The notes under the pieces: generated by a model
The model's database searches: none
Seen by the model: the letters and a program-made list of their open reading frames with translations, nothing else
What the model was told of the DNA's origin: nothing
Translations under genes and position numbers: made by a program
Shown: positions 1,483 through 60,933 of the stretch, one piece after another
Layout: each line of letters starts with the position of its first letter
Numbering within the stretch: position 1 is the first letter of the stretch
NCBI GenBank assembly: GCA_016125355.1
Contig: WGLX01000008.1
Location: 1 to 64,000 of the forward strand
Direction of reading: 5' to 3'
DNA from: Actinomycetales bacterium
Lineage (GTDB): Bacteria > Actinomycetota > Actinomycetes > S36-B12
Length of the DNA: 64,000 nt

Positions 1483-1555
1483 CCAGTCCTCCTCGGGACC
1501 AGGTCGGCGTCGTCGAGCGACAAGTTGGCGAACCGCGGGTATTCTTGCGCATCGG

Positions 1556-1571: not shown

Positions 1572-1598
1572 GTATTTTCCACCACAGTCGGGAGAGTC

Positions 1599-2405: not shown

Positions 2406-2408
2406 CCG

Positions 2409-6844: not shown

Positions 6845-6899
6845 GCCGGCCACTGCCCCCCCACCCCCCCCACCCGCCCACCATGGACCGAGGAGAGCA

Positions 6900-7322: not shown

Positions 7323-7334
7323 CCCTCACCACCG

Positions 7335-11482: not shown

Positions 11483-11988
11483 CCGATCGAGATCCGGAGG
11501 TCCAGCGCCTGCTGGACGAGAGCGACCTGCGCGCCCTGTCCGCGACGTACATGCGCGGACTCGACCGGCTCGACGAGAGCCTCGTCCGCTCCGTCTTCGC
11601 CGACGAAGCGACGACGCACTACGGGTCCTTCACCGGCGGACCGGACGAGATGGCCGCGATGGCGATGCGCGCGCTGACCGCCTACCGCACCACCCAGCAC
11701 CTGCTCGGCCAGATCAACCTCCGCATCGACGGGGACGAGGCGACGGGTGAGGTGTACTTCCAGGCCTTCCACCAGCATGCCACCGAGGACTTCGACCGCT
11801 TCATCTGCGGTCGCTACGTCGACCGCTACCGCAGGCGCGATGGGGGGTGGCTCATGACCCACCGCACCGAGGTCGTCGACTGGACCCGCACCGAGCCGAT
11901 CGCCGACGACTACTTCACCCTCCGCCCGCACACCGTGCGCGGCACTCGCGACACAACCGACCTGAGCTACCGACCGGAAGAGGCATAG
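11479..11988 (+). CDS. SnoaL-like (NTF2-fold) protein
   Basis: 169 residues, SnoaL_4-type: it opens with an LLDESDLRALSATYMRGLDRLDE helix pair (residues 11-33), then THYGSFTG and QHLLGQINLRI strands, and the RYVDRYRRRDGGWLMTHR segment near 112-129 that is typical of ring-hydroxylase-associated NTF2-fold proteins. It overlaps the gene before it by 4 bases and the kinase after it by 1 base. Likely a small catabolic dehydratase, isomerase or non-catalytic partner; catalytic residues cannot be assigned. Confidence 0.82.
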   Translation: MTDRDPEVQRLLDESDLRALSATYMRGLDRLDESLVRSVFADEATTHYGSFTGGPDEMAAMAMRALTAYRTTQHLLGQINLRIDGDEATGEVYFQAFHQHATEDFDRFICGRYVDRYRRRDGGWLMTHRTEVVDWTRTEPIADDYFTLRPHTVRGTRDTTDLSYRPEEA

Positions 11989-17391: not shown

Positions 17392-17445
17392 CTGGGGTCC
17401 TCTCGGCAAACGGGGGTGCTCAGGCTGAGCGACGGTTCACCGTAA

Positions 17446-20951: not shown

Positions 20952-21046
20952 CGTCGTCACTCCTGTGCAGTATCGGGTCCGGACATTCGTGCGCCGCCGG
21001 GCCCAGGGAACGTCCGGCGGCGCACGAGCTCATGAGTTGGGTCGAC

Positions 21047-23808: not shown

Positions 23809-25068
23809 CTACTCGATGACCCGGGGCTTGGCGTACCCCTCCTGCCAGTTCTCGTCGATGAGCCGATTGATCGTCCGGTGGAGGTACTGCACGCCGATCT
23901 CATTGCGGCCGAAGACCTGCGTGTGCCCGCCCGTCGCCCGCACGCCGGCCTGGACGCCGTACTGGGTGAGGTAGTCCTCGTTGTAGACGACGTCGTAGAA
24001 CCAGTCGCGCATCACCTCGAGGTCGTGCTGGACATCGTCGGTGATCTGGTGCCGGACCACGATCCGGTGCTCGGTGATCGACTCGTCGACCTTGGTGGTG
24101 GGCAGGCACAGCGCCACGGTCATCCGCTGGCGCCAGCCGCCCGCGATGGAGAAGCCCGGGAAGGTCCAGTAGATAGGCCCGACATGGTGCGAGGGATCCC
24201 ACTCGTCCTCCGGCGCGTCGGTGACGTCGTCGATGGTGCGGAGCGCGAAGCCCAGTCGTTCGTGGGCGCCGTAGCCGTCGAACACCATCGTGTTGCCGTG
24301 GTTCACCTTGAAGACGGTGTTGGGGTGGGTCGCGGCGAAGTGGTAAGCCTCGAGGTAGCCCTCGATGGTGGCCTTCCAGTTCGGCCCCGGCATCATCCGC
24401 GAGGAGAACACATGGCACTCGTCCAGCTTGAGGTGGGCCAGCTGCTCCCCCCATTCCCCCAGCCACGAGTCGATGTCCATCTCCAGTCCCGGGGTCAGGC
24501 AGACGAAGATCACGCCGTGCCGCTCGGCCACCGGGAGCTGGATGAGCCCACGCTTCTCCCGATCGATGTCCCCGAAGGTGGACTCGCCGTAGACGCCCCG
24601 AAGCTCGCCATCCATGCCGAAGGACCAGGCGTGATAGGGACAGGTCAGGGCCCGGGCCGAACCCCGCCCCTCACAGAGGAGCGCGCCACGGTGGCGGCAC
24701 ACGTTGAGCATGGCGTGCACCTCGCCGGTGGCGTCCCGGGTCATCACGACCGGGACCCCCACCGCCTCGATCGCCTTGTACGAGTTCTTGCCGACCAGTT
24801 CCGCGGAGAGCGCCAGCGGCAGCGGGATGCGCTTGAAGATGAGGTCCACCTCGGCTCGGAAGACATCCTCGTCGAGGTAGTTGTCGATCGGCTCCTCCAT
24901 CGTGGAGTCCGCCTGATCCGTGGTCCTGCGCTCGAGGTGGGCCACGAGCCGGCGCATCATCCCCAGGGCCTGCTCACGCGCCTCCCCGTCGAGGACGTCG
25001 CTGCGCAACCACTGCGGGACCTCCCGCTCGAGCTCGAGGTCCTGCTCCTCAGCGATCAACTCGGTCAT
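23809..25068 (-). CDS. Rieske non-heme iron oxygenase alpha subunit (copy C)
   Basis: 419 residues, close paralogue of copy B along its length. Rieske ligands Cys124-x-His126 and Cys143-x2-His146 (CRHRG ... CPYH); iron site in EAYHFAATH. The ATG at 25068 with GGGAG upstream is chosen over a GTG 18 bases earlier. Its stop lies within the promoter region of copy B, so the two are separate transcripts. Tandem B and C suggest a duplication followed by specialisation for successive or alternative hydroxylations. Electrons probably come from the reductase at 18.2 kb. Confidence 0.95.
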   Translation of the reverse strand: MTELIAEEQDLELEREVPQWLRSDVLDGEAREQALGMMRRLVAHLERRTTDQADSTMEEPIDNYLDEDVFRAEVDLIFKRIPLPLALSAELVGKNSYKAIEAVGVPVVMTRDATGEVHAMLNVCRHRGALLCEGRGSARALTCPYHAWSFGMDGELRGVYGESTFGDIDREKRGLIQLPVAERHGVIFVCLTPGLEMDIDSWLGEWGEQLAHLKLDECHVFSSRMMPGPNWKATIEGYLEAYHFAATHPNTVFKVNHGNTMVFDGYGAHERLGFALRTIDDVTDAPEDEWDPSHHVGPIYWTFPGFSIAGGWRQRMTVALCLPTTKVDESITEHRIVVRHQITDDVQHDLEVMRDWFYDVVYNEDYLTQYGVQAGVRATGGHTQVFGRNEIGVQYLHRTINRLIDENWQEGYAKPRVIE

Positions 25069-25109
25069 GCCGGCTCCCGGGGTCACTCGATCGGGCCGCG
25101 GGCCCGAAA

Positions 25110-29423: not shown

Positions 29424-30851
29424 CTAGGGCCGGGAGATCCACTCGTCCAGGATGGCGTGGTAGTGCCGGATGCGGTTCTCCTGGTACCGGGCCAGCTGCA
29501 CGCCCGGCGTCCGCATCGACTTCAGTCCCTGCTGGATGAACGGCATGTTGGCCATGTCCTGGTCGAACACCGGGCCGAGCAGGCCGATCTCCTTGATGTC
29601 GGAGAAGGTCTCCCCCGGCTGGAGCCAGCGCGGAGCCGGCGGCTTCGGATGGGAGCCATCGGCCGGCGGCTGGGCGAGCAGGAAGACCTCTGCAATACAG
29701 CGATCGGGATCGTTGCCGTAGGGACGGAAGCGGTAGACCGCGTTGGTGCGCGGCCCGGCGAACACGTAGAAGTTCGGGAAGACGAAGTACTGGATGCCGT
29801 CGAGGAGCTCGCTGTCCGTCCAGTGGTCCTGATCGGAGCCGGACATCTCCTGCAGGGCGGATCGCATCTGCGCGGCCAGCTCGCGCCGTGCGGTCGAACC
29901 TTCCGGGACCTGCGGCGTGCCGTCGTCGCCGGCGGCGAGGTCGCGTCCCTTGCCCTGCGTGTAGAACGCGCGGGTCTCGTAGTACGAGTCCAGCACCTCC
30001 TGCTCGGAGATGTGGTTCGCGATCGTCGGGCTGGGCACGCCCTGCGGCACGATCTGCCGGTTCCAGTTCTCGCCGCGGATGACGTCGTACTGGGTGTTCT
30101 CGTCGCCGAGCCACTCCATCATCTGCGGGTGGGTGGCCAGGGAGTGGAAGCCCTCAATGAAGGCCTCGCCCGCCACCTTCCAGTTGCAGTCGACGATGCC
30201 GCCGAAGTGCGAGTACACGACGCGGTCGTCGTAGTTCCAGCGCTCCCAGTCGTTGAGCATCGTGCCGAGGAAGGCCTCGAGCGGCTCTGCGTTCGGATCC
30301 TGGTTGATGAAGACGAAGCCGTTCCACGTGGCGACCTTGGCCTCAGGGAGCGGGAAGTTGCCCGGGTCGATCTCAGGGAAGTCCCAGGCGCACGGGAGCG
30401 TCTTCATCGAGCCGTCAATGTTCCAGGAGAAGCCGTGGAACGGGCAGCGCAGCTCGCCGACCCGGCCGCCCTCCTGGCGGAGCGCACGACCACGGTGCAG
30501 GCAGACGTTGTAGAGCGCCTTGATGCTGCCATCGTGCTGGCGCATGATGATCAGCTTGTCGTCGGCGATGTCGTACGTGATGTGGTCGCCCGGGTTGGGG
30601 ATGTGGTCCTCGCGGCAGACGAACTGCCAGACCCGCCGCCAGACCTTCTCGACCTCCTTGTCGTGGTACTCCCGCGAGATGTACCTCTCGACGTCGAGTG
30701 GAGCGGTGCCGTAGCTCTCGTTGATGTCGTAGCGCAGGACCGGGGGCACCGGACGGGCATCGTTGTCGAGGTACTCCTGCACGCTCGTGCCCGGCGAGCG
30801 CGGGCTCGGCTCCTCGGTCGACTCGCGCTGAGGGGAGGCCAGTTCAGTCAT
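29424..30851 (-). CDS. Rieske non-heme iron oxygenase alpha subunit (copy D)
   Basis: 475 residues, longer than the other copies. Rieske ligands Cys117-x-His119 and Cys136-x2-His139 (CLHRG ... CPFH); the iron site is in EAFIEGFHSLATHPQ. It carries an N-terminal Pro/Ser-rich extension of about 35 residues and an acidic insertion around residues 290-340. ATG with GAGGAG 8 bases upstream. It stands alone behind motif-1 site H and lacks the TCTAGA palindrome of the other four. It resembles the broad SRPBCC-type aromatic ring hydroxylase group; substrate unknown. Confidence 0.95.
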   Translation of the reverse strand: MTELASPQRESTEEPSPRSPGTSVQEYLDNDARPVPPVLRYDINESYGTAPLDVERYISREYHDKEVEKVWRRVWQFVCREDHIPNPGDHITYDIADDKLIIMRQHDGSIKALYNVCLHRGRALRQEGGRVGELRCPFHGFSWNIDGSMKTLPCAWDFPEIDPGNFPLPEAKVATWNGFVFINQDPNAEPLEAFLGTMLNDWERWNYDDRVVYSHFGGIVDCNWKVAGEAFIEGFHSLATHPQMMEWLGDENTQYDVIRGENWNRQIVPQGVPSPTIANHISEQEVLDSYYETRAFYTQGKGRDLAAGDDGTPQVPEGSTARRELAAQMRSALQEMSGSDQDHWTDSELLDGIQYFVFPNFYVFAGPRTNAVYRFRPYGNDPDRCIAEVFLLAQPPADGSHPKPPAPRWLQPGETFSDIKEIGLLGPVFDQDMANMPFIQQGLKSMRTPGVQLARYQENRIRHYHAILDEWISRP

Positions 30852-45197: not shown

Positions 45198-46199
45198 CTA
45201 CCCGCGTCGACGGGCCGTGCGGGCCGCCAGCGCCATGGCGATGATCAGCGCCGCGCCGTTGAACAGCTGGGTGACGTACGTCGGTGCGCCCGCGAGCTGA
45301 AGGCCGGTCACGCCGGTGGCGAGCAGCAGGATGGCGACGATCGTTCCGAGCACGTTGACGCGACCCGGGCGGATCTGGGTCGCGCCGAGGAAGACCGCCG
45401 AGAAGGCCGGCAGCAGGTAGTTCGCACCCGAGTCGGGAGCGCCGTTCGCGTTCTGCGCAAGGTAGACGATGCCGGCGAAGCTGCAGACAACGGCGGACGC
45501 GATGAACGACAGCATGATGATCCGGCCGACCTTGACGCCGGCGAGCCGCGCCGCCACGGGGTTGCCACCGACGGCGTACAGATAGCGGCCGCCCGGCGTG
45601 TACTCGAGGATCCACCAGATCAGCAGGGCGAGCGCGCCGGCGTAGTACACCGACGCCGAGATACCGAACCACTCCTGCCGGGCGAAGTCCAGGAAGGGGT
45701 AGTAGCCCGCCTCGGGAAGGACGAGCTGGCCACCGCCCGAGATCATGTAAGCGACCGCGGCGAGGATCGAACTCATACCCAGGGTGCCGATGAACGAGTC
45801 GACCTTGAACTTGACGACCACGAGCGAGTTGGCCAGGCCGATGATCACTCCGACGATGAGCGCACCGCCGCAGGCGAAGACGACGCCGCGGTGGTCGAGC
45901 AGCGCCCAGGCGGTGAACACGGCGGACACCGTCAGCGTGCCCGCGATCGTCAGGTCGAAGGCGCCCGCCGCGACCGGCACGATCAGGCCGAGGGCCACGA
46001 TGGTGCTGATCGCCTGGAAGGTCAGGATCGTCTTGAAGTTGTCCCAGTTGAGGAACAGGTCCGGGATCCACAGCGAGAAGATGATGACCAGCACGGCCCA
46101 CACGTAGATGCCGCTGAACCGGTCGAAGCCGAGGTTGATGCGCCGCCTCGGCTTGGTCTCTTCGCCCCCAGGAGCGGGGGCGGTCTGCACGTCGGTCAT
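45198..46199 (-). CDS. ABC transporter permease, ribose/sugar type (RbsC-like)
   Basis: 333 residues with 8-10 hydrophobic segments and the family signature of branched/sugar permeases: DLTIAGTLTVSAVFTAWAL near 85 and TPGGRYLYAVGGNPVAARLAGVKV (about 210-235), the cytoplasmic loop that meets the ATPase. ATG at 46199, 43 bases after the ATPase stop. With the ATPase and the two binding proteins at 31-34 kb it makes a full importer, although the parts are spread over 16 kb. Likely transports the pathway substrate (inference). Confidence 0.93.
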   Translation of the reverse strand: MTDVQTAPAPGGEETKPRRRINLGFDRFSGIYVWAVLVIIFSLWIPDLFLNWDNFKTILTFQAISTIVALGLIVPVAAGAFDLTIAGTLTVSAVFTAWALLDHRGVVFACGGALIVGVIIGLANSLVVVKFKVDSFIGTLGMSSILAAVAYMISGGGQLVLPEAGYYPFLDFARQEWFGISASVYYAGALALLIWWILEYTPGGRYLYAVGGNPVAARLAGVKVGRIIMLSFIASAVVCSFAGIVYLAQNANGAPDSGANYLLPAFSAVFLGATQIRPGRVNVLGTIVAILLLATGVTGLQLAGAPTYVTQLFNGAALIIAMALAARTARRRG

Positions 46200-46242
46200 G
46201 TCATGGACTCCGGTTCGCTTGTGCTGTTTCGTCAGTGGTGGG

Positions 46243-47775
46243 TCAGGCCGCGGGTTCGGTCGGCTCGTTGGCGTCGCGGCCGATGGTCGCGGCGGTGATG
46301 TTGTCCGCGGTGATCTCATTGCCACGGAGGATCTCGGCGACCCGGCCACGCCGCATGATGACCACGCGATCGCACACGCGCACGAGCTCCTCGTGGTCGG
46401 TCGAGCAGACGAGCACCGCCGTGCCCATCGCCGCCGCCTCGTCGACGAGCTTGTGGATGTCGGCCTTGGCACCGACGTCCACGCCCTGGGTGGGCTCATC
46501 CATGATCAGCACCTCGGGCTGCTGGCGCAGCCAACGGGCGAGGATCACCTTCTGCTGGTTTCCGCCGGACAGCTGAGCCATCGTGTACTCGGTCTGGCCG
46601 GCCGGCTTGACCGTCAGCTTGTCGAGCCAGATTCGGACGTCGGCGCGCTCGGGGCGCCGACGCAGGATGCCCATCGTCATGTGCCGGCCCGGGTCGACCA
46701 GCGTGATGTTCTCGCGCAGAGTCTGGTCGATCAGCGAGGCATTGGCGTGCCGCTCGGCCGGCACGAGGGCCACTCCCCGCTCGATGGAGATATCGGGACG
46801 GTTCTGCGGCAGTACCTTGCCGTCCACTGTCACCTCGCCTCCGCGCTCCATGCCACCGAACACGAGCCCGGCCACCGCCTCGCGACCGGACCCGGTGATG
46901 CCGGCCACGCCGACGACCTCGCCGCGGTGCACCTCGAGATCGAGCTTCGCGACCGATCCGCCGGCGACGTCGGTGATCTTGAGGATCTCCGGCCCGTGCT
47001 CGCGGGCATCGGCGGCGTCCTTGTTGTGCTCCTGGAGCTTGCGGCCGACGACCAGCTCGATGAGCTCCTCCTCGGTGAGGCCCTCCACCGGTCGCGTGAC
47101 GATGTGCTTGCCGTCGCGGAGCACCGTGACGGAGTCCGCCATCTCGAAGACCTCGTCGAAGTGGTGGGAGACGAAGAGGACGGCCACGCCGGAATCGGCC
47201 ACGCGCCGCACGAGCTTGTACAGGCGCTGCGCCTCGGCGTTGGGCAGGTTGGCAGTCGGCTCGTCGAGGATGAGCATCTTCACCTCGCTGCCCCGGTCGG
47301 ACATCGCGCGCGCGATCGCGACCGCGGTGCGCTCGGACATCTGCAGGCCCGCGACGGGGATGCGCACGTTGATGTCGTAGCCGAGGTTGGCGAGCGCCTC
47401 CCGTGCGTGCTTGCGCTCCTTGCGCCACCGGATGGTCTTGACCCCGTTGGTGATGTAGCCCTGGCCCATCGCCATGTTGTCCACGGCGTCGAGGTTGCCC
47501 ACGAGGCCGAGGTCCTGGTGGACGAAGCGCAGCCCGATGGCCTCGCTGGAGACCGGATCCTCGAAGGGCAGCGGCTCGCCGCCGACTGTCACCTCGGTCC
47601 CGGGCTCGGGTGCGTGGAAGCCGGCGAGGATCTTGATCAGCGTCGACTTTCCGCAGCCGTTCTGCCCGACGAGCGCGCGGACCTCACCCGGCTCGACGTC
47701 GATGCTGACGTCATTCAGGGCCACCTGCGCGCCGAAGATCTTCGTCGCGTTGCGAACCGACAGCGCCGTGGTCAT
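46243..47775 (-). CDS. ABC transporter ATP-binding protein, sugar type with two nucleotide-binding domains (RbsA-like)
   Basis: 510 residues, two ABC domains in tandem. The first has Walker A VGQNGCGKST, signature MSERTAVAIARAM and Walker B MLILDEPTANLP; the second has the degenerate Walker A of this family (GITGSGREAVAGL), signature LSGGNQQKVILARWL and VLIMDEPTQGVDVGAK. The ATG with GGGAGG 5 bases upstream is preferred over an adjacent GTG. First of the ATPase-permease operon, behind a weak motif-1 copy. Confidence 0.94.
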   Translation of the reverse strand: MTTALSVRNATKIFGAQVALNDVSIDVEPGEVRALVGQNGCGKSTLIKILAGFHAPEPGTEVTVGGEPLPFEDPVSSEAIGLRFVHQDLGLVGNLDAVDNMAMGQGYITNGVKTIRWRKERKHAREALANLGYDINVRIPVAGLQMSERTAVAIARAMSDRGSEVKMLILDEPTANLPNAEAQRLYKLVRRVADSGVAVLFVSHHFDEVFEMADSVTVLRDGKHIVTRPVEGLTEEELIELVVGRKLQEHNKDAADAREHGPEILKITDVAGGSVAKLDLEVHRGEVVGVAGITGSGREAVAGLVFGGMERGGEVTVDGKVLPQNRPDISIERGVALVPAERHANASLIDQTLRENITLVDPGRHMTMGILRRRPERADVRIWLDKLTVKPAGQTEYTMAQLSGGNQQKVILARWLRQQPEVLIMDEPTQGVDVGAKADIHKLVDEAAAMGTAVLVCSTDHEELVRVCDRVVIMRRGRVAEILRGNEITADNITAATIGRDANEPTEPAA

Positions 47776-47821
47776 CACGCCTCCCTCACGATCGGTGGAA
47801 CACTACCTGCCAAGCACCGAA

Positions 47822-47848: not shown

Positions 47849-50395
47849 TCACGAATCGGTACCGGTTACCGCGTGGGCGGCCGCCAGCCGAGCCACCGGG
47901 ATGCGCGTCGACGAGGCGGACACATAGTCGAGTCCGAGCCGCTCGCAGATGGCGATGGAAGCGGGGTCGCCGCCGTGCTCGCCGCAGATGCCCAGCTTGA
48001 TGTCCGGGCGGACCTCCCGGGCTCGCGCCGCGGCGTACTCCATCAGTCCGGCGACGCCGTCCCCATCCAATTCGGCGAACGGGCTCGCGGTCATCAGCCC
48101 CTTCTCCAGGTAGGTGCCGAGCATGCGCCGCTCGACGTCGTCCCGGGAGAAGCCGTAGGTCAGCTGCGTGAGGTCGTTCGTGCCGAAGGAGAGGAACTCG
48201 GCCCACTGCGCGAGCTTGCCCGCCATCATCGCCGCTCGCGGGGTCTCGACCATCGTGCCGATCTTGAACGGGACGACCATGCCGGTCCGCGACGCCACCT
48301 GCTGGTTTACCCGTCGGATGAGCCGGAGGGACATCACCAGCTCCTCCGGGATGGAGACGAGCGGGACCATGACCTCCAGCTGCGGCCGGACATCGTCCTC
48401 GTGGACCACGTCGACCCAGGCGTTGAACAGCCCCTCGACCTGGGCCGGGTAGAGCCCCTCGTGCATCAGTGCGAGGCGCACTCCGCGCACCCCGAGCATG
48501 GGGTTCTCCTCGTGCAGGTGCTCGAGCATGCGGCCCTGCTTCTCGTCCTCGAGCTCGTCGGCACTCGAGGGCAGGAACTCGTGCATCGGGGCGTCGAGCA
48601 GGCGGACCGTGACCGGTCGGTCACCGACCTCGCGCAGGAGCTCACGGAAGTCCTCGCGCTGCGCGACGGCGAGCTCGGCGAGCGCCTTCTCCTCTGTGTC
48701 GACGTCGTGGGAGAGGATGACCGCCCGCACGAAGGGCAGCCGGTCGCCCAGGAACATGTGCTCGGTGCGGCACAGTCCGATGCCCTCGGCGCCATTGTCG
48801 AATGCGACGGATGCGTCGGCCGCGTTGTCGGCATTGGCACGGACGCCCAGGCGACGGGCGTCGTCGGCCCAGCCCAGCAGCGTCGTGAGGCTGGGCGAGG
48901 GCACCGGTCGCTCGATGCGCAGCTCGCCGACATAGGCGACGCCGGAGCTGCCGTCGATGGAGATGAGGTCGCCTTCGGCGAGCACGTGCTCCCCGGCCGA
49001 GATCGTCCGCGCGTCGCGGTCGATGCGCAGGTCGCCGGCACCGCAGATCGCCGGGCGCCCCATGCCGCGGGCCACCACGGCGGCATGGGAGGCCGAGCCG
49101 CCGTTCACGGTCAGGATCCCGGTCGCCGCCATCATGCCCGGCAGGTCGCCCGGGGTCGTCTCGGACATCACGAGGATGGCCTTGTCGCCCGCCTCGGTCA
49201 GCTCGACGGCGGTCTCGCTGTCGAGCGCAATGCGACCCACCGCCGCTCCGGGGGAGGCACCGAGCCCGGTCACGAGCGGGACCTCGTCGCCGGTCAGTTT
49301 CGGCTGCGGGTGGAGGAGCTCGACGACGTGCACGGGGTTGGTCGAGCCGACGGCCGCGGACTCGTCGGTGATGCCCCGGATCGCGAGGTCCACCGCGAGG
49401 CTGGTGGCCACGCGGGCGTTCGGACGGCGCAGCTGCTCGAGCCCCACGAGGGCCAGCCCCTCGGGGCCGTACTCGAAGTCGACCGTCACGGCGCTTCGCA
49501 GTCGTCCCTCCAGCTCGGCCAGCACGCCGGTGAGCATCTCGACGCCGCCGGGCAGCTCGTCGAGGGGATGGCCGTCGACCATGCGCTCGCCCACCATGCG
49601 GAAGCCGTGGTGGAACATGCCGTTCGGCGCGAAGGCTCCCGAGTCCATGTCGCGGGACACGGCGAAGCCGTAGCCCTCGTCATCGTGCTCGGTGACGACG
49701 ATGGTCTCGAGGTGCAGTGCCAGCGGAAGGTCGGCCGGCAGGTTCTGCTTCTTGCGGGCCCGCGCCGCGCGCGGGGAGCTCCACCGGGCGATCATCGCCC
49801 GGGCGCCGAGGGCGACCTGCTGGGAGCGCTTCTCCGGGAACGGCGCGATGCCGCGGGCAGCGCACAGCTCCTTGAAGGGCTCCACCCGCGCGACCGGATC
49901 GGGGTAGTCGAAGTCCAGCGCACCGAGCTCGTCGCTGGGCACCTCGAGGGCGTACTCGGCGATGAAGGTGGCGGTCTTCCACCAGGACGTGGCCAGCGAC
50001 GTGAGCGCGCCCTCGCCGAGTCCGTCAGGGATGACGCTGCGCTTCAGCCCGAGGCAGACCAGATCGGGCGGGAGGCCGGCCGCGTCGACGGGCGCGCTGG
50101 CGCTCAGCCGGAGCAGGATCAGCCCACCGGTCTCCGTGGTGCTGCTGATCTGCCGCCCGGAGATGCTCTCGAGCAGGTTCATGGCGGCCTTGGCCCGATC
50201 GGCCGAGGTGAAGCCGGGCACGTTGGGGACCGGGATGGTCAGGCCGGCGCCGACCGGGAGGCCGAGGCCGGCAAGGGTCTCGAGCTGCACGCCACGCGTG
50301 CACAGGGATCGCTGGTCGAGGCCGCGGGCGAAGCCCTTGCCGAACGGGACGAGGCCGACGTCGTCGATGGGCGACGTCCACGACGCAGGTGTCAC
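47849..50395 (-). CDS. Pyruvate phosphate dikinase-like protein with intact PEP half and divergent ATP half
   Basis: 848 residues, full PPDK length. The swivelling His is His437 in NGGSASHAAVVARG. The PEP/pyruvate barrel is intact: LCRTEHM (541-547), NPMLGVRG, GTMVETPR, FGTNDLTQ and the catalytic Cys804 in GICGEHGGD. The N-terminal ATP-grasp half is recognisable (VDFEYG for the Asp/Glu pair) but the GGKG loop reads CTRG and the usual LQTR reads LEQLR, so ATP use is doubtful. GTG start overlapping the stop of the 204-aa gene (GTGA). It may charge its His from PEP and pass phosphate on (inference). Confidence 0.88.
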   Translation of the reverse strand: MTPASWTSPIDDVGLVPFGKGFARGLDQRSLCTRGVQLETLAGLGLPVGAGLTIPVPNVPGFTSADRAKAAMNLLESISGRQISSTTETGGLILLRLSASAPVDAAGLPPDLVCLGLKRSVIPDGLGEGALTSLATSWWKTATFIAEYALEVPSDELGALDFDYPDPVARVEPFKELCAARGIAPFPEKRSQQVALGARAMIARWSSPRAARARKKQNLPADLPLALHLETIVVTEHDDEGYGFAVSRDMDSGAFAPNGMFHHGFRMVGERMVDGHPLDELPGGVEMLTGVLAELEGRLRSAVTVDFEYGPEGLALVGLEQLRRPNARVATSLAVDLAIRGITDESAAVGSTNPVHVVELLHPQPKLTGDEVPLVTGLGASPGAAVGRIALDSETAVELTEAGDKAILVMSETTPGDLPGMMAATGILTVNGGSASHAAVVARGMGRPAICGAGDLRIDRDARTISAGEHVLAEGDLISIDGSSGVAYVGELRIERPVPSPSLTTLLGWADDARRLGVRANADNAADASVAFDNGAEGIGLCRTEHMFLGDRLPFVRAVILSHDVDTEEKALAELAVAQREDFRELLREVGDRPVTVRLLDAPMHEFLPSSADELEDEKQGRMLEHLHEENPMLGVRGVRLALMHEGLYPAQVEGLFNAWVDVVHEDDVRPQLEVMVPLVSIPEELVMSLRLIRRVNQQVASRTGMVVPFKIGTMVETPRAAMMAGKLAQWAEFLSFGTNDLTQLTYGFSRDDVERRMLGTYLEKGLMTASPFAELDGDGVAGLMEYAAARAREVRPDIKLGICGEHGGDPASIAICERLGLDYVSASSTRIPVARLAAAHAVTGTDS

Positions 50396-51006
50396 GCCCC
50401 GCCACCCGAGACGAGTTGCTCCTCCAGGGCCTCGTCCTCCTGCCGGGTCATGCCGATGGTCAGCAGCAGTTCCTGGTGCAGGTGCATCCAGACCGTGTGG
50501 TACGAGTCGCACAGCGGCGAGGCCAGCCACGCGTCGTCGCCGTCGTCGAGCTTCTCGAGGGCCTCGGTCAGGCGAGGACGGTAGACCGCGATGCCCGGCA
50601 GGTCCTCGGCGAAGCGCTTGATGATCGGGCCGACGGCGTCGTCGATGTCATCGAGCCGGTCGCGGATATCCGCGTCGTAGGACTCGTCCGAGTGGTCATT
50701 GACGCTGCCATCCGGGCGCAGCTGCCAGGCGGTGCAGAGGTCGCGCAGCTGCCGGTTGATGGGCAGGAAGCGGTGGAAGGTGGCCATGATGCGCTCGCGC
50801 TCCGGCGCGTCGTCCGGAAGCCGGAGCAGCTCGGCGACGTAGGCGGTGCCGGCGGGCGTGGGCATCATCATCGGGCCCTTGATGAGGATCAGGCCGGCGT
50901 CAGCGAGTGCCTGCTGCTCGGCGTTCGCCTCGCCACGGGCCATCCCTCGGACGGCCATGCTCACCATGGCGTCCCGCTGCTCGTCCGTCAGGGCCACGTC
51001 AGCCAT
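50392..51006 (-). CDS. Unknown 204-aa protein coupled to the PPDK-like enzyme
   Basis: 204 residues, mostly helical and acidic, no signal or membrane segment. The first 70 residues look like a winged-helix-type module (LTDEQRDAMVSMAVRG, LIKGPMMMPTPAG), followed by helices with FHRFLPINRQLRDLCTAWQL and a C-terminal SYHTVWMHLHQELLLTIGM. I do not recognise the family with certainty. It precedes the PPDK-like gene with a 4-base overlap, so a regulatory or phosphoacceptor partner is plausible. Its ATG lies 58 bases from motif-1 site D. Confidence 0.8.
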   Translation of the reverse strand: MADVALTDEQRDAMVSMAVRGMARGEANAEQQALADAGLILIKGPMMMPTPAGTAYVAELLRLPDDAPERERIMATFHRFLPINRQLRDLCTAWQLRPDGSVNDHSDESYDADIRDRLDDIDDAVGPIIKRFAEDLPGIAVYRPRLTEALEKLDDGDDAWLASPLCDSYHTVWMHLHQELLLTIGMTRQEDEALEEQLVSGGGA

Positions 51007-52348: not shown

Positions 52349-54382
52349 TCAGGCGGGGGTGACCTCGACGAGGGTGTCGTGGAACCAGGGCGAGCCGCGG
52401 TCGTCGTCGCCCACGGTCGCGTTGGTCAGGGCGTTGACGGCCCGCCCCTCGGGCGAGCTGCGATGCCACCAGCCGAACGGGATGGCCACCAGCCCGGGCT
52501 GCACGTCGTCGGAGACCTCCGCGGTCAGCGTGAGCGACCCGCGGTCGTTGCGGACCACGACCGGTGACCCGTCGACGATCCCGCGACGGCTCGCGTCGCG
52601 CTCGTGGATCTGCAGCGTCGGCTCGCCCGCGTTGGGCTGATGGGCCGGCAGCCCTCCGTAGCTGGAGTTGAGGAACTTGTTGTGCTGCTTGCGGGACATG
52701 AGCGCGAGCGGGTAGCGATCCTCCTCGACGGAGCCGCCGCCCACGGTCTCGCGACCCGGGCGATGCTCGAGGGCCCCCAACCGCATGGCGGCGACCGGGG
52801 CCCCGGGCAGCGGATCCACGTGCGGACGCACCTCCTCGGGCACCGCCAGCCGTGCCCAGCCCTCCTCGGCCAGACGCTCGTAGGTGATGCCGTCCAGGAA
52901 CGGATGGCCGCTGGCGAGCATGTCGCGGATGAGGTCCTCGTCGCCGCGCTCGAGGACCGGATCCGAGATCCCCAGCTCGCGCGCCAGCCGCCGGGCGAGC
53001 TCGCTGTTGGGCAGCGCCTCCCCCAGCGGTGCGATCGCCGGCCGGTTCAAGGCGAGGTAGAGGTGCCCCCACGGGTCCATCAGGTCCCAGTGCTCGACCT
53101 GCGTGGTCGCGGGCAGCACGAGGTCGGCATACGCGGCCGTATCCGTGACGAACTGGTCGACGACGACCGTGAAGAGGTCCTCGCGCTCCAGCCCCGCCAC
53201 CACGCGATTCTGGTCGGGGAGGATGGCCGCCGGATTCGCGTTGTGGACGAACAGCAGCTCGATCGACGGATCCCCCAGCCGAGGCTCGGTCAGCACCTGG
53301 CCGAGCCGGGCCATGTTGACCAGGCGCCGGGGCAGCCGCTCCGGGGTGGCGAGCGCGAGCCCGGGCCATGAGCTCGTCGACCGCGCGAGACCGCCCCCGA
53401 CTTCGCGCCAGGAGCCCAGGGCCGCGGGCAGCATCGCGATGGCGCGGGCGATCTCCAGGCCGTTCTCGCGGTGCTCGGAGCCGATGAGGGTGCGCAGGAA
53501 GGTCGGCCCCCGAGTCGCCATGCGCTGTGCCAGTGCCTCGATGACCTCCGGGGCGAGACCGGTCGCCGCACCGGCGCGCTCCGGTGCCCACGCGGCGGCG
53601 CTCGACTGCAACTCGTCCCAGCCCGTCGTGCGATCGGCGAGCCAGCCGGGATCCAGCAGGCCGTCCCGATCAAGGACGTGGACGAGGCCGAGCACGAGGG
53701 CGACATCGGAGCCGGGCAGCAGCTGCAGGTGCTCGTCGGCGGCCTTGGCCGTGTCGGTGCGGATCGGATCGATCACGGTGACGTGGGCGCCGGCCGCTCG
53801 CGCCTCCTCGATGAACGGCCACAGGTGGCGGTTCGTGATCCGGGTGTTCGTCCCCCACAGGACGATGGTCCGGGCGTGCCGGATGGCCTCGGGATCCGCG
53901 CTCAGCGGCACGCCGAGCACATCGGCCGCACCCATGCGGGAGGTGGTCCCGCAGATCTCGCCTCGGATGTCGCTCGCCCCGACGAGGTCGAAGAGCCGGT
54001 TGAGCGCCACGCCCATCTGCAGGGCGCCCTGGGTGCCGGCCGACGCGAACTGCAGGATCGCCTCCGCCCGGCCATCGTCGATGAGGCCGCGCATCCGCCC
54101 GGCGATGTCGGCCAGGGCCTCATCCCAGCCGATCGGCTCGAAGGCGCCGCTGCCCTTGGGGCCGGACCGCCGCAACGGCGTCAGCACCCGGTCCGGGTGG
54201 TAGACGCGGTCCAGGAACCGGTTGACCTTCGGGCACAGGGTGCCCCGGGTGAAGGGGTGATCCGCGTTGCCGCGCAGCCGCGTGGCGACGCCGTCCTCGA
54301 CAGTGACCACCCAGGCACAGGTGTCCGGGCAGTCGTGGTGGCAGGCCCCCAGAACCGTGAGCTGCTCGCCGACCCGCGTCAT
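52349..54382 (-). CDS. Molybdopterin-dependent oxidoreductase (DMSO reductase family)
   Basis: 677 residues. The N-terminal [4Fe-4S] ligands are in CHHDCPDTC plus the Cys of GTLCPKV; the MGD-binding segments LWGTNTRITNRH and PATTQVEHWDLMDPWGHLYL and the C-terminal LMSRKQHNKFLNSSYGG / NALTNATVGDD regions are present. Such enzymes transfer oxygen or hydroxyl groups or oxidise C-H bonds with water. No twin-arginine signal is seen, so it is cytoplasmic. It follows PEP-utilising protein 2 by 17 bases, in one operon. Hydroxylation by water or transhydroxylation of a phosphorylated ring is a possible role (inference). Confidence 0.93.
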   Translation of the reverse strand: MTRVGEQLTVLGACHHDCPDTCAWVVTVEDGVATRLRGNADHPFTRGTLCPKVNRFLDRVYHPDRVLTPLRRSGPKGSGAFEPIGWDEALADIAGRMRGLIDDGRAEAILQFASAGTQGALQMGVALNRLFDLVGASDIRGEICGTTSRMGAADVLGVPLSADPEAIRHARTIVLWGTNTRITNRHLWPFIEEARAAGAHVTVIDPIRTDTAKAADEHLQLLPGSDVALVLGLVHVLDRDGLLDPGWLADRTTGWDELQSSAAAWAPERAGAATGLAPEVIEALAQRMATRGPTFLRTLIGSEHRENGLEIARAIAMLPAALGSWREVGGGLARSTSSWPGLALATPERLPRRLVNMARLGQVLTEPRLGDPSIELLFVHNANPAAILPDQNRVVAGLEREDLFTVVVDQFVTDTAAYADLVLPATTQVEHWDLMDPWGHLYLALNRPAIAPLGEALPNSELARRLARELGISDPVLERGDEDLIRDMLASGHPFLDGITYERLAEEGWARLAVPEEVRPHVDPLPGAPVAAMRLGALEHRPGRETVGGGSVEEDRYPLALMSRKQHNKFLNSSYGGLPAHQPNAGEPTLQIHERDASRRGIVDGSPVVVRNDRGSLTLTAEVSDDVQPGLVAIPFGWWHRSSPEGRAVNALTNATVGDDDRGSPWFHDTLVEVTPA

Positions 54383-54399: not shown

Positions 54400-56115
54400 C
54401 TACACCGTCTCGAGAACCTCAACCGTGCCCTTGGCTCCGTCGACCCGGACGCGGTCGCCCGTCTTGAGCGCCTGGGTGGCACCGACGAGGCCGCCCACGC
54501 AGGGGATGCCGAGCTCGCGGGCCACGATCATGGCGTGCGAGCCCATCGAGCCCGTGTTCACGATCACGCCCGATGCCACGAGGAACAGCGGCGTCCACGA
54601 CGGATCCGTCTGCGGGGCGACGAGGATCTCGCCCGGCTGGAACTCGTCGATCGCATCCGTGCTCAGGACGACCCGGACCGAGCCCTCGACGACGCCCTGT
54701 GAGGACGCCGCCCCGTTGAGCACGTCTCCGGCGTTGGCGCGAGCCGTGCTGCTCGCCCCCTTCCGAGGCAGGTCGGAGATGGAGGGGATCGGCTGGGAGG
54801 CATCGACGAAGGTCGGGATGTCAAGCTCCTGCAGGGCCTTCCAGGCCTGCTCCCGCTCCTTCAGCGCCTCGAGGTAGGACGTGTCCTTGAGCGCCAGGGC
54901 ATCGAGCTCGCTGTCGAGCGCGATGAAGATCTGGCGGGAGTGCTCCAGGATCCCGTCCGCGGCGAGCCGCTCACCGAGCTCGATGAGCGCCATGCGGGCC
55001 TCGTTCATGATCTTGATGCAGGACGACTTGCCACTCTCGCGCCAGCCGGCGAAGCGGCGGGCCGAGCCGATGGCACCGCGGAAGGCCGCCTCCGTGGCGG
55101 CGTCCATGCCCGCCGTCGCCTCGGCCATGGCCCGGTCCGTCTCGGCGGCGTGGGCGGCCTGCTTGGCCGACGGCGACTGGGTGTCGTCGAGCAGTCGCAT
55201 CTTGTCGACGAGGGCGAGGGCCAAGGTCGGCTTGGACTCCCATGACTCCGTGCCGAGGTCCCACTCGGACGGGCCGCGGTAGCCGAACTCGCCGATGAAG
55301 GCGGCGAACTCGCTCCAGAATCCGCCCGCGGCGATCGGGAGCTTCTCGGCGACCTTGTCGACCCCGCTGTCGAAGAGCGCCGTGAGCTCGGGGCTGTTGC
55401 GCACCGTGCGGGACAGGTTCCACAGGGCGTACGTCGGGGCCGCGGACTCCACGTCGCCGGCGTAGCCGAGGATCGTGACCAGCAGGTGGGCCTTCTCGGG
55501 GGGCAGCATCTGGCCCGCGACCGCCGGCCCGAGGGCGGCGTTGGACGAGCCGATCTGCTCCGACCGCCAGGCGAGCCGCTGGTAGGGCATCATCGCCCGC
55601 GCCCGCGCCACGAGCGCGCGGTTGCTCAGCGCCTTGAGGTTGGGTCGGTTCCAGCGGAGGTCGTCGGCGATCGCCTCGTCCTCATCGGCGCCCTCGAACT
55701 TGGTGGTGGACAGCACCCAGGCGGCGCGAGCCGCGCCGCGCTCGGACAGCTCGGGGTTCTGGTCCTCGGGCGAGGACACGTGCGCCGGGGCCCCCGGTGA
55801 GTTGAAGAAGATCGAGTCGATGATCTCGGCGGTCATGCCCTTGCGGATGCCCAGCACACGGACCGAGCTCTGGTTGACGTACAGGTATCCGTAGATGAAG
55901 CCGGCGACGGACGCCTCCTCGGCGAGCTCCTCCGCCGTGAAGCAGACGTCCTCGACGTATCCGGAGGCCCAGCCGGGCAGCACATTCGGGATCCAGCACA
56001 TCGTCGCGCCGAGCGGCGTGATCGGATCGGCCATCACGTCCGCGGCGTTGAGACGGGTGTAGACGGGGAAGCGGGTGCTGGGCTCGGTGTCGGTGAGCCA
56101 GGCCTTCTCGGACAT
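54400..56115 (-). CDS. PEP-utilising phosphotransferase-like protein 2 (substrate domain plus phosphohistidine domain, no ATP-grasp)
   Basis: 571 residues, paralogue of proteins 1 and 3. The N-terminus WLTDTEPSTRFPVYTRLNAADV and the C-terminal swivelling domain with His527 in GSMGSHAMIVARELGIP show the substrate-plus-His layout of phenylphosphate synthase subunit 1 and rifampin phosphotransferase without its ATP-grasp part. The middle domain diverges strongly between the three copies, as expected if each binds a different substrate. It precedes the molybdopterin oxidoreductase. Its upstream region has the palindromic site M. Confidence 0.82.
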   Translation of the reverse strand: MSEKAWLTDTEPSTRFPVYTRLNAADVMADPITPLGATMCWIPNVLPGWASGYVEDVCFTAEELAEEASVAGFIYGYLYVNQSSVRVLGIRKGMTAEIIDSIFFNSPGAPAHVSSPEDQNPELSERGAARAAWVLSTTKFEGADEDEAIADDLRWNRPNLKALSNRALVARARAMMPYQRLAWRSEQIGSSNAALGPAVAGQMLPPEKAHLLVTILGYAGDVESAAPTYALWNLSRTVRNSPELTALFDSGVDKVAEKLPIAAGGFWSEFAAFIGEFGYRGPSEWDLGTESWESKPTLALALVDKMRLLDDTQSPSAKQAAHAAETDRAMAEATAGMDAATEAAFRGAIGSARRFAGWRESGKSSCIKIMNEARMALIELGERLAADGILEHSRQIFIALDSELDALALKDTSYLEALKEREQAWKALQELDIPTFVDASQPIPSISDLPRKGASSTARANAGDVLNGAASSQGVVEGSVRVVLSTDAIDEFQPGEILVAPQTDPSWTPLFLVASGVIVNTGSMGSHAMIVARELGIPCVGGLVGATQALKTGDRVRVDGAKGTVEVLETV

Positions 56116-56182
56116 GCGCCATCCATTCGACTCGGGGAGTAACTCGAGGCGGAGTCTGCCACCACCGCGGGACGATGGCACG

Positions 56183-57078: not shown

Positions 57079-58302
57079 TCAGATGGTGCGCTCGCCGTGC
57101 ACCGGCCGACCGTCGAGAAGCCGTGCCAGGGTGTCGTGCGCGTACTGGACCGCTATCTCGTTCCGCCCGATGATCATGTGCTTGTCCGGGATGGACTGCA
57201 GGCCGTTCTGCACGTCGGTCTGGGCGGTGTAGTCCTCGTCGCGGAAGGCCGCGAAGAACCACTCGGCGGTCTTCTCGGCCTCCGTCATCTGCTCCTCGGT
57301 CTGCGGCGGCGTGCGGAGCAGGGTGGTCTGCCAGGTCATCGACTCCCCCCACGAGTCACCCGGAAGCATGATCGAGATGACGGTGCGCTCGCGCATGCCC
57401 CCGGCGATCGACATGCCCGGGAAGATCCAGTACACGAGGCCCATCGCGACCGCCGGGTCCCATTCCTCGCGCGGCTTGTCCATCATCGCGTCGAGGGTCC
57501 GCAGGGCGAACACGTTGCGCACGTGCGGGCCGAACCGGTCATTGGTGGCCCGGTTGGCGTGGTTGGTCAGCGCCACCGTGTTCGGGTGCAGGGCGCCGAA
57601 GTGGTAGCTCTCCAGGTAGCCGTCGAGGGTCACCTTCCAGTTCGGGCCGGGGAGCTCCTTGGTGACGAAGTGCGTGCACTTGTCGAGCTCGAGAGCCTCG
57701 AGGTAGGGCAGCACCGGGCCGAGCCAGGCATCGATGTCCATCTCCCGGCCGGGCGTCAGGCACACGTACACGATCCCCGCCCGTTCCTCGCACGCGAGGC
57801 GCACCAGGCCGTAGTCGTCCTTCTCGAACTCCCCGAAGGTGTCCTCGCCGGGGACGCCGGTCAGCCTTCCCTCGTGGTCGTACGACCACGCGTGGTACTG
57901 GCACACGAAACCACGGCGGGAGTTGCCGCAGCCCTCGGGGACGAGCTTCATCGCGCGGTGCCGGCAGACGTTGAGCATGGCGCGCAAGTGCCCGTCCCGG
58001 CCGCGAACGAGGATGATCTCCTTGCCGACCACGCGCAGCGCCTTGTAGTCGCCGACTTGAGCCACCTCAGCCGAGGTGCACACAGGCAGCGGGATCTTGT
58101 AGAAGACCTCGGTGACCTCGCGCTGCCACTGCTCGGGATCGAGGTAGTACGAGATCGGGATCTCCAGGGGGGCGGCCGCCTGGTCGGTGGTGCCGTTGCG
58201 CAGGTGCTCGACGAGGCGGTCCATGATGGCCATGGCCTCGTCGCGCGTCAGCGCGGCATGGCCGCCGGCCAGGTACTGGGGAACATGGTCGATCGCGGTC
58301 AT
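57079..58302 (-). CDS. Rieske non-heme iron oxygenase alpha subunit (copy E)
   Basis: 407 residues, member of the B/C/E paralogue set (AMAIMDRLVEHLRNGTTDQA, YKIPLPVCTSAEV). Rieske ligands Cys113-x-His115 and Cys134-x2-His137; the second motif is CQYH rather than CPYH. Iron site in ESYHFGALH. The ATG at 58302 with GAGGTG 5 bases upstream is preferred over a GTG two codons earlier. A TTGACG/TAAAGT promoter with a motif-2 palindrome precedes it. Likely hydroxylates a further intermediate of the same substrate class as B and C. Confidence 0.95.
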   Translation of the reverse strand: MTAIDHVPQYLAGGHAALTRDEAMAIMDRLVEHLRNGTTDQAAAPLEIPISYYLDPEQWQREVTEVFYKIPLPVCTSAEVAQVGDYKALRVVGKEIILVRGRDGHLRAMLNVCRHRAMKLVPEGCGNSRRGFVCQYHAWSYDHEGRLTGVPGEDTFGEFEKDDYGLVRLACEERAGIVYVCLTPGREMDIDAWLGPVLPYLEALELDKCTHFVTKELPGPNWKVTLDGYLESYHFGALHPNTVALTNHANRATNDRFGPHVRNVFALRTLDAMMDKPREEWDPAVAMGLVYWIFPGMSIAGGMRERTVISIMLPGDSWGESMTWQTTLLRTPPQTEEQMTEAEKTAEWFFAAFRDEDYTAQTDVQNGLQSIPDKHMIIGRNEIAVQYAHDTLARLLDGRPVHGERTI

Positions 58303-58336
58303 CGGCACCTCGGGGCTCGTGCGGGTGGTCCCGCAA

Positions 58337-58384: not shown

Positions 58385-58476
58385 TCGTGTCTCCCACGAG
58401 GTGGGACAAACGACGCAAACATCGGGTGAAGGGGCCGTTTTGACTCGTTTCTCCCACTAGGTGGGAGAAACGAGTC
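58385..58476. repeat. Hairpin doublet (repeat family copy 2) at the 3' end of a histidine phosphatase gene
   Basis: Hairpins 58385-58397 with 58401-58413 (two mismatches) and 58442-58457 with 58461-58476 (GACTCGTTTCTCCCAC, perfect). The spacer again contains GCAAACA and GTTTTG. Sequence and design match the doublet at 40.06 kb. The phosphatase stop codon is inside the right arm. Confidence 0.85.
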
Positions 58477-59194
58477 AGTTGGTGTGGATGCCGACGTGCA
58501 GGTGCTGGCGCTCGTTGACCGAATGCACCCGGCGGACCTCGCCCTTGGCCCAGACGGTCGTGATCGAGCAGTGGCTCGGCAGGAAGAACATGTCCTCCTC
58601 GATGCCCAGGATCCAGCCGAGATAGGCGTTGATGACCCCGCCATGGCTGACCAGGACGATGGACTGCCCCTCGAAGTCCGCCACCAGCTGCTCGATGGCA
58701 CCGACGGCGCGCTGGCGGAACTCCGCCGACCCCTCGCCGAACGGCATCTCATCCCACTTCACGAACCGCTCGAAGCGGGCCTCCCGAGCGGCCCAGTCCT
58801 CCGGGTCGATGAGCGTCCGCGGATCGACTCCGTGCTCGAGCTGGTTGAAGGTCTGCACCTCGACCAGCTCCGGCCGGACGATCGGCTCAAGCCCATGCGG
58901 CGCCGCGATGATCCTCGCCGTCTCGATGGCTCGGTTCATCGTGCTGCACGCGACCACATCGACCTCGAAGTCCTCGGCCAGCGTGGCCGAGACCGCCATC
59001 GCCTGGGTCGTGCCGAGGCCGCTCAGCGGCGGGTCGTCCCACTGCTTGGGGTCGTAGTCCGTACCGGACGGGTAGTCCTGCTGGGCATGGCGCACGAGCG
59101 TCAGCCGGGTGACCCCCTCCTCCTCGAGGAAGAGGAACGGGCGGCGGACGGAGAACGGCGGCTCGGGCGACTTCGGCGGGGGCTTGAGCGTCAC
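58475..59194 (-). CDS. Histidine phosphatase (phosphoglycerate mutase-like) family protein
   Basis: 239 residues. Catalytic motif LTLVRHAQQDYP, second His in IVLVSHGGVIN, acid in LVEVQTF. About 25 residues precede the catalytic strand, more than usual; the GTG start is chosen because it overlaps the stop of PEP-utilising protein 3 by 4 bases (GTGA) and no other start fits. Coupling of a phosphatase directly to a phosphotransferase-like protein suggests that it reverses or completes its reaction (inference). It may have broad phosphomonoesterase activity. Confidence 0.88.
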   Translation of the reverse strand: MTLKPPPKSPEPPFSVRRPFLFLEEEGVTRLTLVRHAQQDYPSGTDYDPKQWDDPPLSGLGTTQAMAVSATLAEDFEVDVVACSTMNRAIETARIIAAPHGLEPIVRPELVEVQTFNQLEHGVDPRTLIDPEDWAAREARFERFVKWDEMPFGEGSAEFRQRAVGAIEQLVADFEGQSIVLVSHGGVINAYLGWILGIEEDMFFLPSHCSITTVWAKGEVRRVHSVNERQHLHVGIHTN

Positions 59195-60933
59195 GCCGAC
59201 TCGACGACCCGGACCGCGCCGGTCGATCCGTCGAGCTCGACGGTCGTGCCCGTGGGGAGGACCTGGCTGGCGTTGCGCAGGGAGACCACGCAGGGCACGC
59301 CCAGCTCACGGCTGACGATCACCGCGTGGCTGGCCTGGGCCCCGATCTCGCAGATGACCGCGCTGGCGATCATGAACAGCGGCACCCAGGACGGGTCGGT
59401 CGTCGTGCAGACGAGGATCTCCCCCGGCTCGAGGGAGTCCGCGTCGGCCAGGTCGAGGATCACCCTCGTCTTGGCCGTGACCGTGCCCGGTGAGCCGGGA
59501 ATCCCCGTGAGCTCGGTTCCGACGGCAGCGCCGGCACCGGTGTTCTCGGCGATCCGCTTGCGCGTGGGCCACTCGCTGATCGGCGGGATCGGCACCCCTC
59601 GCTGCACGAGGTACGGCGGCTCCTTGTCGGCCAGGGTCAGCCACTGCCCATGCCGGTCGGCGAGCGTCTCGGTGAACGACGCCGGGTCGGCGAGGAAGGC
59701 GGCGAGCTCCGACTCGAGCAGCTGGAACACGTGCAAGGGATCCTTCAGGTGCCCCCGCTCGTGCATCCTCCGGCCGAGCTCGCGGAACGCGAGCTTGGGC
59801 TCCTGCATGAGCATGACGGTCGCGTTCTTGCCGGCCTCCCGGAAGCGGTAGGACGACTGGCCCGACGCGATCCCGGCGGCCAGCATGCCCGCGCTCGCCT
59901 CATCGCCTGCCACCGCCGCGGTCAGCTCGGCAACGGCCGCCTCACGCTGCTCCGCGCCCTTCGCCGCGCGCGCCGCGGGGGACATCGGATCGTCCTGCCG
60001 GCGCACCCGATCGATCATCTGGTACGCGAGCGTGGGGTTGATCGTCCAGGTCTCAGCACTGATCTCCCACTCGTTGACCCCGCGATGGCCGAACTCCGCG
60101 AGCAGCGAGTCGAAGGCGGCTTTGAACGCCTCGGCGGACGGGTTGGCCGCCAGCCGCTCGGCGATCCCGTCCATGCCCGCGTCGAACTCCGCGGTGAGGG
60201 CCGGGGTGTAGCGGACCATGCGGGACAGCTCCCACACCTTCTCGGGGAGCCCCGCGGAGGCGACGTCACCGAGTGCGGCGAAGATCCTGATGCCCAGCTC
60301 GGGCTTGCCCACTGCGTCCGCGATGCCCTGGACGATCTGGGGGCCGACGGTCGCGCCGATCACGATCTGGGCGTAGATGTCCCAGCCGTACCGCTGCCAG
60401 CGGGCGGAGGTACGGCCGTACTCGACGAGCTCCTCGTCGGAGATGGCGGCCAGGTCAGGGCGGGTGTTGCGCAGGCGACGGCACTCGGCGAGGAAGGACT
60501 CCGTCAGTGCCGCGTGCGCACCGCCGAGGATGGCGCCCATGGACTCGGCGAGCTTGGCCGAGCACTCCTCGTTGTCGTCACGGGGGTCGTGCTGGTACGG
60601 CGGCACGGAGGGGTTCTGGCCGAAGAAGGAGATGTCGATCGCATCAGGTGTGGCCCCCGGCATCCGGTAGCCGAACACCCGGCCCAGCGAGACCTGGTTG
60701 AAGAAGTACCCGCCCCAGTTGCCGTAGGTCTCGGGGATGCTCCAGTCGAACTCGTCCGGGGTGAAGGTTCCCAGCGCGATCCACGCATCCGCCGTGCCCG
60801 GTACGACGCCCTGCTCCCAGGCGAGGGTCCAGTTCAGCGGGGTGAACGGCTCCGGCCCGACCTCGTCCGCGTTGGCCCGGGTGTACAGGGGGAACCGCTC
60901 GCACGGCTCGGTATCGGAGATCCAGGTGTCCAT
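59191..60933 (-). CDS. PEP-utilising phosphotransferase-like protein 3 (substrate domain plus phosphohistidine domain, no ATP-grasp)
   Basis: 580 residues, third member of the set. N-terminus WISDTEPCERFPLYTRANADEV, C-terminal swivelling domain with His536 in GAQASHAVIVSRELGVP. As in the other two, there is no ATP-grasp domain and no PEP barrel, so it must receive phosphate from another protein or be charged by a partner. ATG with AAGGAA 6 bases upstream. Operon order: SnoaL-like, this gene, histidine phosphatase. The related architecture in phenylphosphate synthase phosphorylates a phenolic hydroxyl. Confidence 0.82.
   Translation of the reverse strand: MDTWISDTEPCERFPLYTRANADEVGPEPFTPLNWTLAWEQGVVPGTADAWIALGTFTPDEFDWSIPETYGNWGGYFFNQVSLGRVFGYRMPGATPDAIDISFFGQNPSVPPYQHDPRDDNEECSAKLAESMGAILGGAHAALTESFLAECRRLRNTRPDLAAISDEELVEYGRTSARWQRYGWDIYAQIVIGATVGPQIVQGIADAVGKPELGIRIFAALGDVASAGLPEKVWELSRMVRYTPALTAEFDAGMDGIAERLAANPSAEAFKAAFDSLLAEFGHRGVNEWEISAETWTINPTLAYQMIDRVRRQDDPMSPAARAAKGAEQREAAVAELTAAVAGDEASAGMLAAGIASGQSSYRFREAGKNATVMLMQEPKLAFRELGRRMHERGHLKDPLHVFQLLESELAAFLADPASFTETLADRHGQWLTLADKEPPYLVQRGVPIPPISEWPTRKRIAENTGAGAAVGTELTGIPGSPGTVTAKTRVILDLADADSLEPGEILVCTTTDPSWVPLFMIASAVICEIGAQASHAVIVSRELGVPCVVSLRNASQVLPTGTTVELDGSTGAVRVVESA

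Follow-up and report, generated by a model that had tools for sequence, protein, structure and literature searches.

Active sites of the PPDK relative

The question raised by this locus is what reaction is carried out by a PPDK relative (dPPDK) in which a full PEP/pyruvate site stands beside a replaced ATP/Pi site, and which proteins it serves. The window, i.e., the whole stretch of DNA that was analyzed, is 64 kb long, and the two genes at the center of the question are the following.

47849..50395, minus strand: dPPDK, a PPDK relative of 848 aa (GTG start at 50395, end at 47849)
50392..51006, minus strand: p204, a protein of 204 aa (ATG at 51006 to TGA at 50392)

Three parts were distinguished in dPPDK: a pseudo-ATP-grasp half (residues ~1 to 360), a swivel domain with His437 (~368 to 495), and a PEP/pyruvate barrel (~505 to 845). 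The domains found by Pfam were PF00391 (mobile domain) and PF02896 (PEP barrel), with no others; the scan detected neither the ATP-grasp domain PF01326 (PPDK_N) nor PF05524, the HPr-binding N-terminal domain of enzyme I. The protein scored below the cutoff for both the PPDK equivalog TIGR01828 (635.7 versus 843.45 bits) and NF004531 (124.6 versus 456 bits).

The active sites were compared by aligning dPPDK with the Clostridium symbiosum PPDK and canonical PPDKs, which served as the reference for residue numbering. The window protein differs from them at all six tested ATP/Pi-site residues (K22, R92, D321, E323, Q335, and R337). It has CTRG where PPDK has GGKG, and the remaining five positions are occupied by S, T, D, G, and E, respectively. 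All five tested residues of the PEP/pyruvate site (R561, R617, E745, N768, and C831) are kept, as R543, R598, E717, N740, and C804, and the swivel H455 of PPDK is retained as H437. An earlier reading of the sequence alone had described an intact PEP half with a swivelling His437 and an ATP-grasp half without the GGKG loop and the LQTR motif, and both descriptions agree with the alignment. Among 20 dPPDKs from several families, H455, R561, R617, E745, N768, and C831 are invariant, K22 is exchanged for R or H, and substitutions at R92, D321, E323, Q335, and R337 are general apart from rare single exceptions among distant members. A class of homologs at 40 to 45% identity was considered as further dPPDKs and rejected, as GGKG and LQTR are present and identify them as canonical PPDKs.

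The best sequence matches of dPPDK among known structures were PPDKs, over the whole length of the protein. Its AlphaFold2 model, of moderate quality (pLDDT of 72, pTM of 0.55, poor at ~236 to 340) and not used for details, aligned end to end with PPDK structures 2r82 and 1vbg (Z of ~35, 704 to 711 residues), with an rmsd of 8 to 9 Å over the moving domains. As judged from its residues, dPPDK is a PPDK relative in which the ATP site has been lost while the PEP site and the phosphate-carrying histidine have been kept.

Conservation and selection

Full-length orthologs of dPPDK at 72 to 85% identity were found in the genus and family, and others at 49 to 64% occur elsewhere in the Actinomycetes, including Actinomadura rudentiformis and Goekera deserti. 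In the phylogeny, all tested dPPDKs formed a single clade apart from canonical PPDK (support 100/100). Since this one clade extends across the Actinomycetes, the loss of the ATP site is deduced to be old and shared. Within the genus, dN/dS was 0.09 to 0.22 for the N-terminal half, 0.09 to 0.24 for the swivel, and 0.06 to 0.16 for the barrel, with loci L013, L017, L067, and L068 left out for saturation or frame problems. The orthologs keep an open reading frame through the N-terminal half. The former ATP-grasp half is thus divergent but under purifying selection and is not decaying; the term "decayed" applied to it in the sequence-only reading is contradicted by these data, and a pseudogene is ruled out by the dN/dS values and the conservation.

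The p204 protein

The overlap of p204 with dPPDK is 4 bases long, as had been noted from the sequence, and consists of the shared GTGA. Of 23 loci examined, 22 have p204 immediately upstream of dPPDK, with an overlap of 4 bases in 16 and of 1 base in 2. p204 matched no family in Pfam or NCBIfam, and a sequence search of the PDB with p204 gave none. The structural model was confident (pLDDT of 93.6) and predicted a winged-helix-like N terminus (residues 8 to 61) followed by a helical bundle (68 to 200). Foldseek returned nothing significant with this model, the best match being PadR (E value of 0.39). The invariant residues are N84, C91, W94, Q95, N103, D104, H105, D107, Y110, D111, R131, Y142, S168, Y169, H170, W173, and H177, and the motifs include YHTVWM and NDH.

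Weaker p204-like proteins form a second tier and are present in many more genomes. Most of the second-tier loci examined adjoin a truncated PPDK that has the ATP-grasp motifs intact but lacks a PEP barrel, and the five such proteins scanned all passed NF004531, which, with PRK05878, we take to be the family of VadK (Rv1127c). In one case (locus L099, minus strand, 1486-3501) a VadK-type truncated PPDK with ATP-grasp motifs and swivel is fused to a C-terminal p204-like domain, which thereby occupies the place of the PEP barrel of PPDK. Since many genomes without the HpeH proteins described below have relatives of p204 paired with VadK-type proteins, p204 is not specific to HpeH. From position and size, p204 was inferred to be homologous to Rv1126c; the exact 28-base Rv1127c primer had no match in the retrieved loci.

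Other arrangements of p204-like sequences were also observed. In L126 (minus strand, ~10679-12814), a p204-like domain is fused to an acyl-CoA ligase-like (AMP-binding) protein, and an HpeH-like gene and a VadK-type gene are nearby. An Acidimicrobiia relative with 41% identity (L071, 10001-10537) has no adjoining PPDK, and on the opposite strand, at a distance of ~0.4 kb, there is a swivel-like mobile-domain frame. The p204 loci of L059, L060, L063, L064, and L070 are 72 to 78% identical to the lineage of the window; they come from public MAG records titled Bifidobacterium breve, and the record names look wrong.

HpeH-type subunits and the gene cluster

The three further PEP-utilizer proteins pointed out in the sequence-only reading are real and are listed here as HpeH19, HpeH54, and HpeH59, together with the genes around dPPDK.

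19200-20960, minus strand: HpeH19, orphan HpeH-type subunit with orthologs near dPPDK in distant Actinomycetes
45198-46499, minus strand: ABC transporter permease
46243-47778, minus strand: sugar-type ABC transporter ATPase, directly downstream of dPPDK and conserved in the genus and family
54400-56181, minus strand: HpeH54, orphan HpeH-type subunit (substrate domain and swivel His549) with no adjoining ATP-grasp partner
57079-58308, minus strand: Rieske ring-hydroxylating oxygenase alpha subunit (Rieske57), between HpeH54 and HpeH59 and conserved in the cluster
58475-59194, minus strand: histidine phosphatase superfamily protein, between Rieske57 and HpeH59 and conserved
59191-60933, minus strand: HpeH59, orphan HpeH-type subunit

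All three subunits have the HpeH layout of a substrate domain and a swivel domain with a conserved histidine. No stand-alone ATP-grasp subunit (HpeI) was found in the 64-kb window, and none adjoins these HpeHs in the relatives. In the genus, the gene order is [HpeH59-phosphatase-Rieske57-HpeH54]-p204-dPPDK-ABC. A molybdopterin oxidoreductase gene (52349-54382) is situated between HpeH54 and p204, and several relatives have an FMN-oxidoreductase-like gene instead. Five Rieske oxygenase-type proteins are encoded in the window (16234-17409, 22464-23711, 23809-25086, 29424-30851, and 57079-58308), four of them confirmed by Pfam, and histidine-phosphatase-like genes are located at 25209, 40150, and 58475.

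Weak, classical HpeH matches in the relatives examined were mostly on the same contig as an HpeI. A classical HpeI/HpeH-like pair is also present in the genome of the window (L001, ~6736-9744; G000:C2:138852-141725), from which it follows that ATP-driven and presumed PEP-driven HpeH systems coexist in one genome.

Co-occurrence of dPPDK with HpeH and other phosphate donors

Among 59 relatives, these HpeHs were found in 13 genomes, dPPDK in 14, and both in 13. Among 394 Actinomycetes genomes, dPPDK was found in 13, these HpeHs in 17, and both in 12 (Fisher P value of 3e-18, uncorrected for kinship and partly reflecting shared gene clusters). All 12 genomes in this sample of 394 that have an ortholog of HpeH19 or HpeH54 with at least 49% identity carry dPPDK. 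The five HpeH-bearing genomes without dPPDK belong to one family (f18), and their homologs are at most 42% identical and fall outside the orthologous groups; a pairing without exceptions was nevertheless rejected because of these HpeH-like proteins. Orthologs of dPPDK and HpeH share a contig, with ~7 to 25 kb between them, in Actinomadura rudentiformis, Goekera deserti, a Frankiales MAG, and six further genomes from three families. In two genomes dPPDK was found with no close HpeH, namely, G005, which is a fragmented MAG, and G378. Within the class sample, the dPPDK of G378 (L137) stands alone both in having no adjoining p204 and in occurring in a genome without a close HpeH.

Other donors that might load these HpeHs were searched for. 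No stand-alone HpeI was detected in G014, G020, G031, G223, G303, or G307; PPDK_N had no match at an E value of 1e-10 in G307, which is rated 100% complete; and the search for enzyme I gave nothing in G000, G001, G014, G020, G031, G059, G078, or G223. None of HpeI, PPDK, and enzyme I is common to all of the dPPDK/HpeH genomes examined, and dPPDK is the sole tested donor type that is present in all. In characterized HpeH-type subunits, ATP-dependent activity requires the ATP-grasp subunit HpeI, and the swivel histidine of HpeH is needed; phosphate was moved without HpeI, but slowly (PMC12167813). These HpeHs may also receive phosphate by exchange between phosphorylated substrates, and HpeI could load HpeH where one exists, e.g., on C2 of the genome of the window.

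Proposed mechanism and alternatives

We propose that dPPDK mirrors VadK as a phosphohistidine donor charged by PEP and loads HpeH small-molecule kinases in Rieske-oxygenase catabolic clusters, and we give this proposal an even chance of being correct. dPPDK would no longer use ATP, and the barrel would move the phosphate of PEP to His437 with release of pyruvate; this charging is suggested since the PEP-site residues and the histidine are kept. Phospho-His437 would then hand the phosphate to partner proteins instead of AMP/Pi, the most likely acceptors being the swivel histidines of the orphan HpeH19, HpeH54, and HpeH59. That a PEP-dependent donor feeds these acceptor-type proteins had been suggested from the sequence, and the suggestion is strengthened by the active-site residues, the co-occurrence, and the HpeHs without an adjoining ATP-grasp protein; the step from dPPDK to HpeH itself probably takes place, as we infer from the genomic association. 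A charged HpeH would phosphorylate a small substrate ahead of Rieske oxygenation, and by analogy with the cresol and hydroxyphenylethanone routes a histidine phosphatase would take the phosphate off later, for which the protein at 58475-59194 is a candidate. p204 would serve as an obligate partner from the family that is also found next to VadK-type genes, and would probably dock on the pseudo-ATP-grasp/swivel part of dPPDK. The broader version, in which one donor of dPPDK and p204 charges several interchangeable HpeHs, each with its own substrate, much as many sugar permeases are supplied by enzyme I and HPr, in a PEP-powered branch of the small-molecule dikinases, is put forward more tentatively, at somewhat short of even.

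If the proposal is true, a conserved PEP-driven donor for several acceptor subunits would amount to PTS-like logic outside the PTS, in lineages partly without enzyme I. For VadK, whose partner has been little studied, dPPDK with p204 is a natural mirror image through which the role of that partner becomes testable in harmless bacteria.

A self-contained PEP-dependent kinase would work differently: the N-terminal half and p204 would bind a new acceptor, either a small molecule or a protein, to which the swivel would bring the PEP phosphate, and the HpeHs would be charged elsewhere or work by phosphate exchange. The purifying selection on the conserved N-terminal half implies that it does something, and the dense invariant polar residues of p204 resemble a binding pocket more than a plain scaffold. 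Relatives of p204, moreover, pair with VadK-type proteins, and in one instance are fused to one, where HpeH is absent. This explanation is nonetheless considered unlikely, as it does not account for the presence of dPPDK with every close HpeH ortholog or for the missing HpeI.

In a second alternative, dPPDK would be a VadK-like regulator whose PEP-dependent histidine phosphorylation signals the PEP/pyruvate state and regulates either bound enzymes or the ABC transporter, and substrates would get no phosphate from it. VadK has been reported as a regulatory histidine kinase that autophosphorylates and binds methylcitrate-cycle enzymes, and its operonic partner Rv1126c raised its solubility and was removed by a 2 M NaCl wash (PMC13400623). 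Since VadK is the mirror image of dPPDK, the degenerate regulator offered as a second possibility in the sequence-only reading stays in play, and the p204-like proteins beside VadK-type proteins are consistent with it. A regulator would, however, predict no special tie to HpeH, and the genomes and clusters concerned are tied to HpeH and Rieske oxygenases rather than to one central pathway, so that this role is regarded as quite doubtful.

It is highly improbable that dPPDK still makes or uses ATP as an ordinary PPDK would, through a nucleotide site that has shifted. The overall fold and the ~35% identity to PPDK structures would fit such an enzyme, but the window protein has other residues at all six tested ATP/Pi positions, the clade as a whole has them at nearly all, PF01326 is undetected, and an intact canonical PPDK is already encoded in the same genome (contig C27). 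A decaying, functionless pseudo-enzyme, which the lost ATP-site motifs might suggest, can be dismissed given that the frame is open in the orthologs, that all three parts have dN/dS values well under 1, and that operon and coupling are conserved.

Comparison with known systems

dPPDK resembles PPDK in the order of its three parts, the swivel histidine, and the full PEP/pyruvate site; it differs in the replaced ATP/Pi site, the score below the cutoff, and the ties to p204 and HpeH. To our knowledge, the described small-molecule dikinases of the superfamily (rifampin phosphotransferase, HpeHI, CreHI, and PpsAB) are all ATP driven. HpeH19, HpeH54, and HpeH59 share the layout of substrate domain and swivel histidine with the two-component dikinases HpeHI, CreHI, and PpsAB (PMC12167813), but they are without an adjoining HpeI and have dPPDK as their constant companion.

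The likeness to enzyme I of the PTS that had been drawn from the sequence holds for the chemistry and the barrel. Enzyme I has a PEP barrel and a phosphohistidine domain that passes phosphate to other proteins, as is proposed for dPPDK. The likeness does not extend to the HPr-binding domain of enzyme I, which dPPDK lacks; its N-terminal part is a pseudo-ATP-grasp. The EI-dependent phosphorylation of rifampicin, observed in vitro with a single protein and not detected in vivo, is a precedent for a PEP-derived phosphohistidine reaching a small molecule, with no HpeH or p204 involved (PMC13099321).

VadK resembles dPPDK as a PPDK derivative that has lost one half but kept the swivel histidine, and a p204-like protein is found beside VadK-type genes. 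It differs in that the ATP-grasp half is kept, the PEP barrel is absent, and the activity is ATP dependent, dPPDK having the opposite half. The two thus appear to complement each other as halves of PPDK, each with a partner of the same kind. One sentence of the VadK report mentions full-length mycobacterial PPDKs without kinase motifs, and these may be dPPDKs (PMC13400623). Apart from this sentence, the literature searches returned no PEP-dependent PPDK derivative with HpeH. PPDK derivatives such as VadK and two-component small-molecule dikinases are known; a conserved clade of PEP-only PPDK relatives tied to p204 and orphan HpeH was likewise absent from the literature searched.
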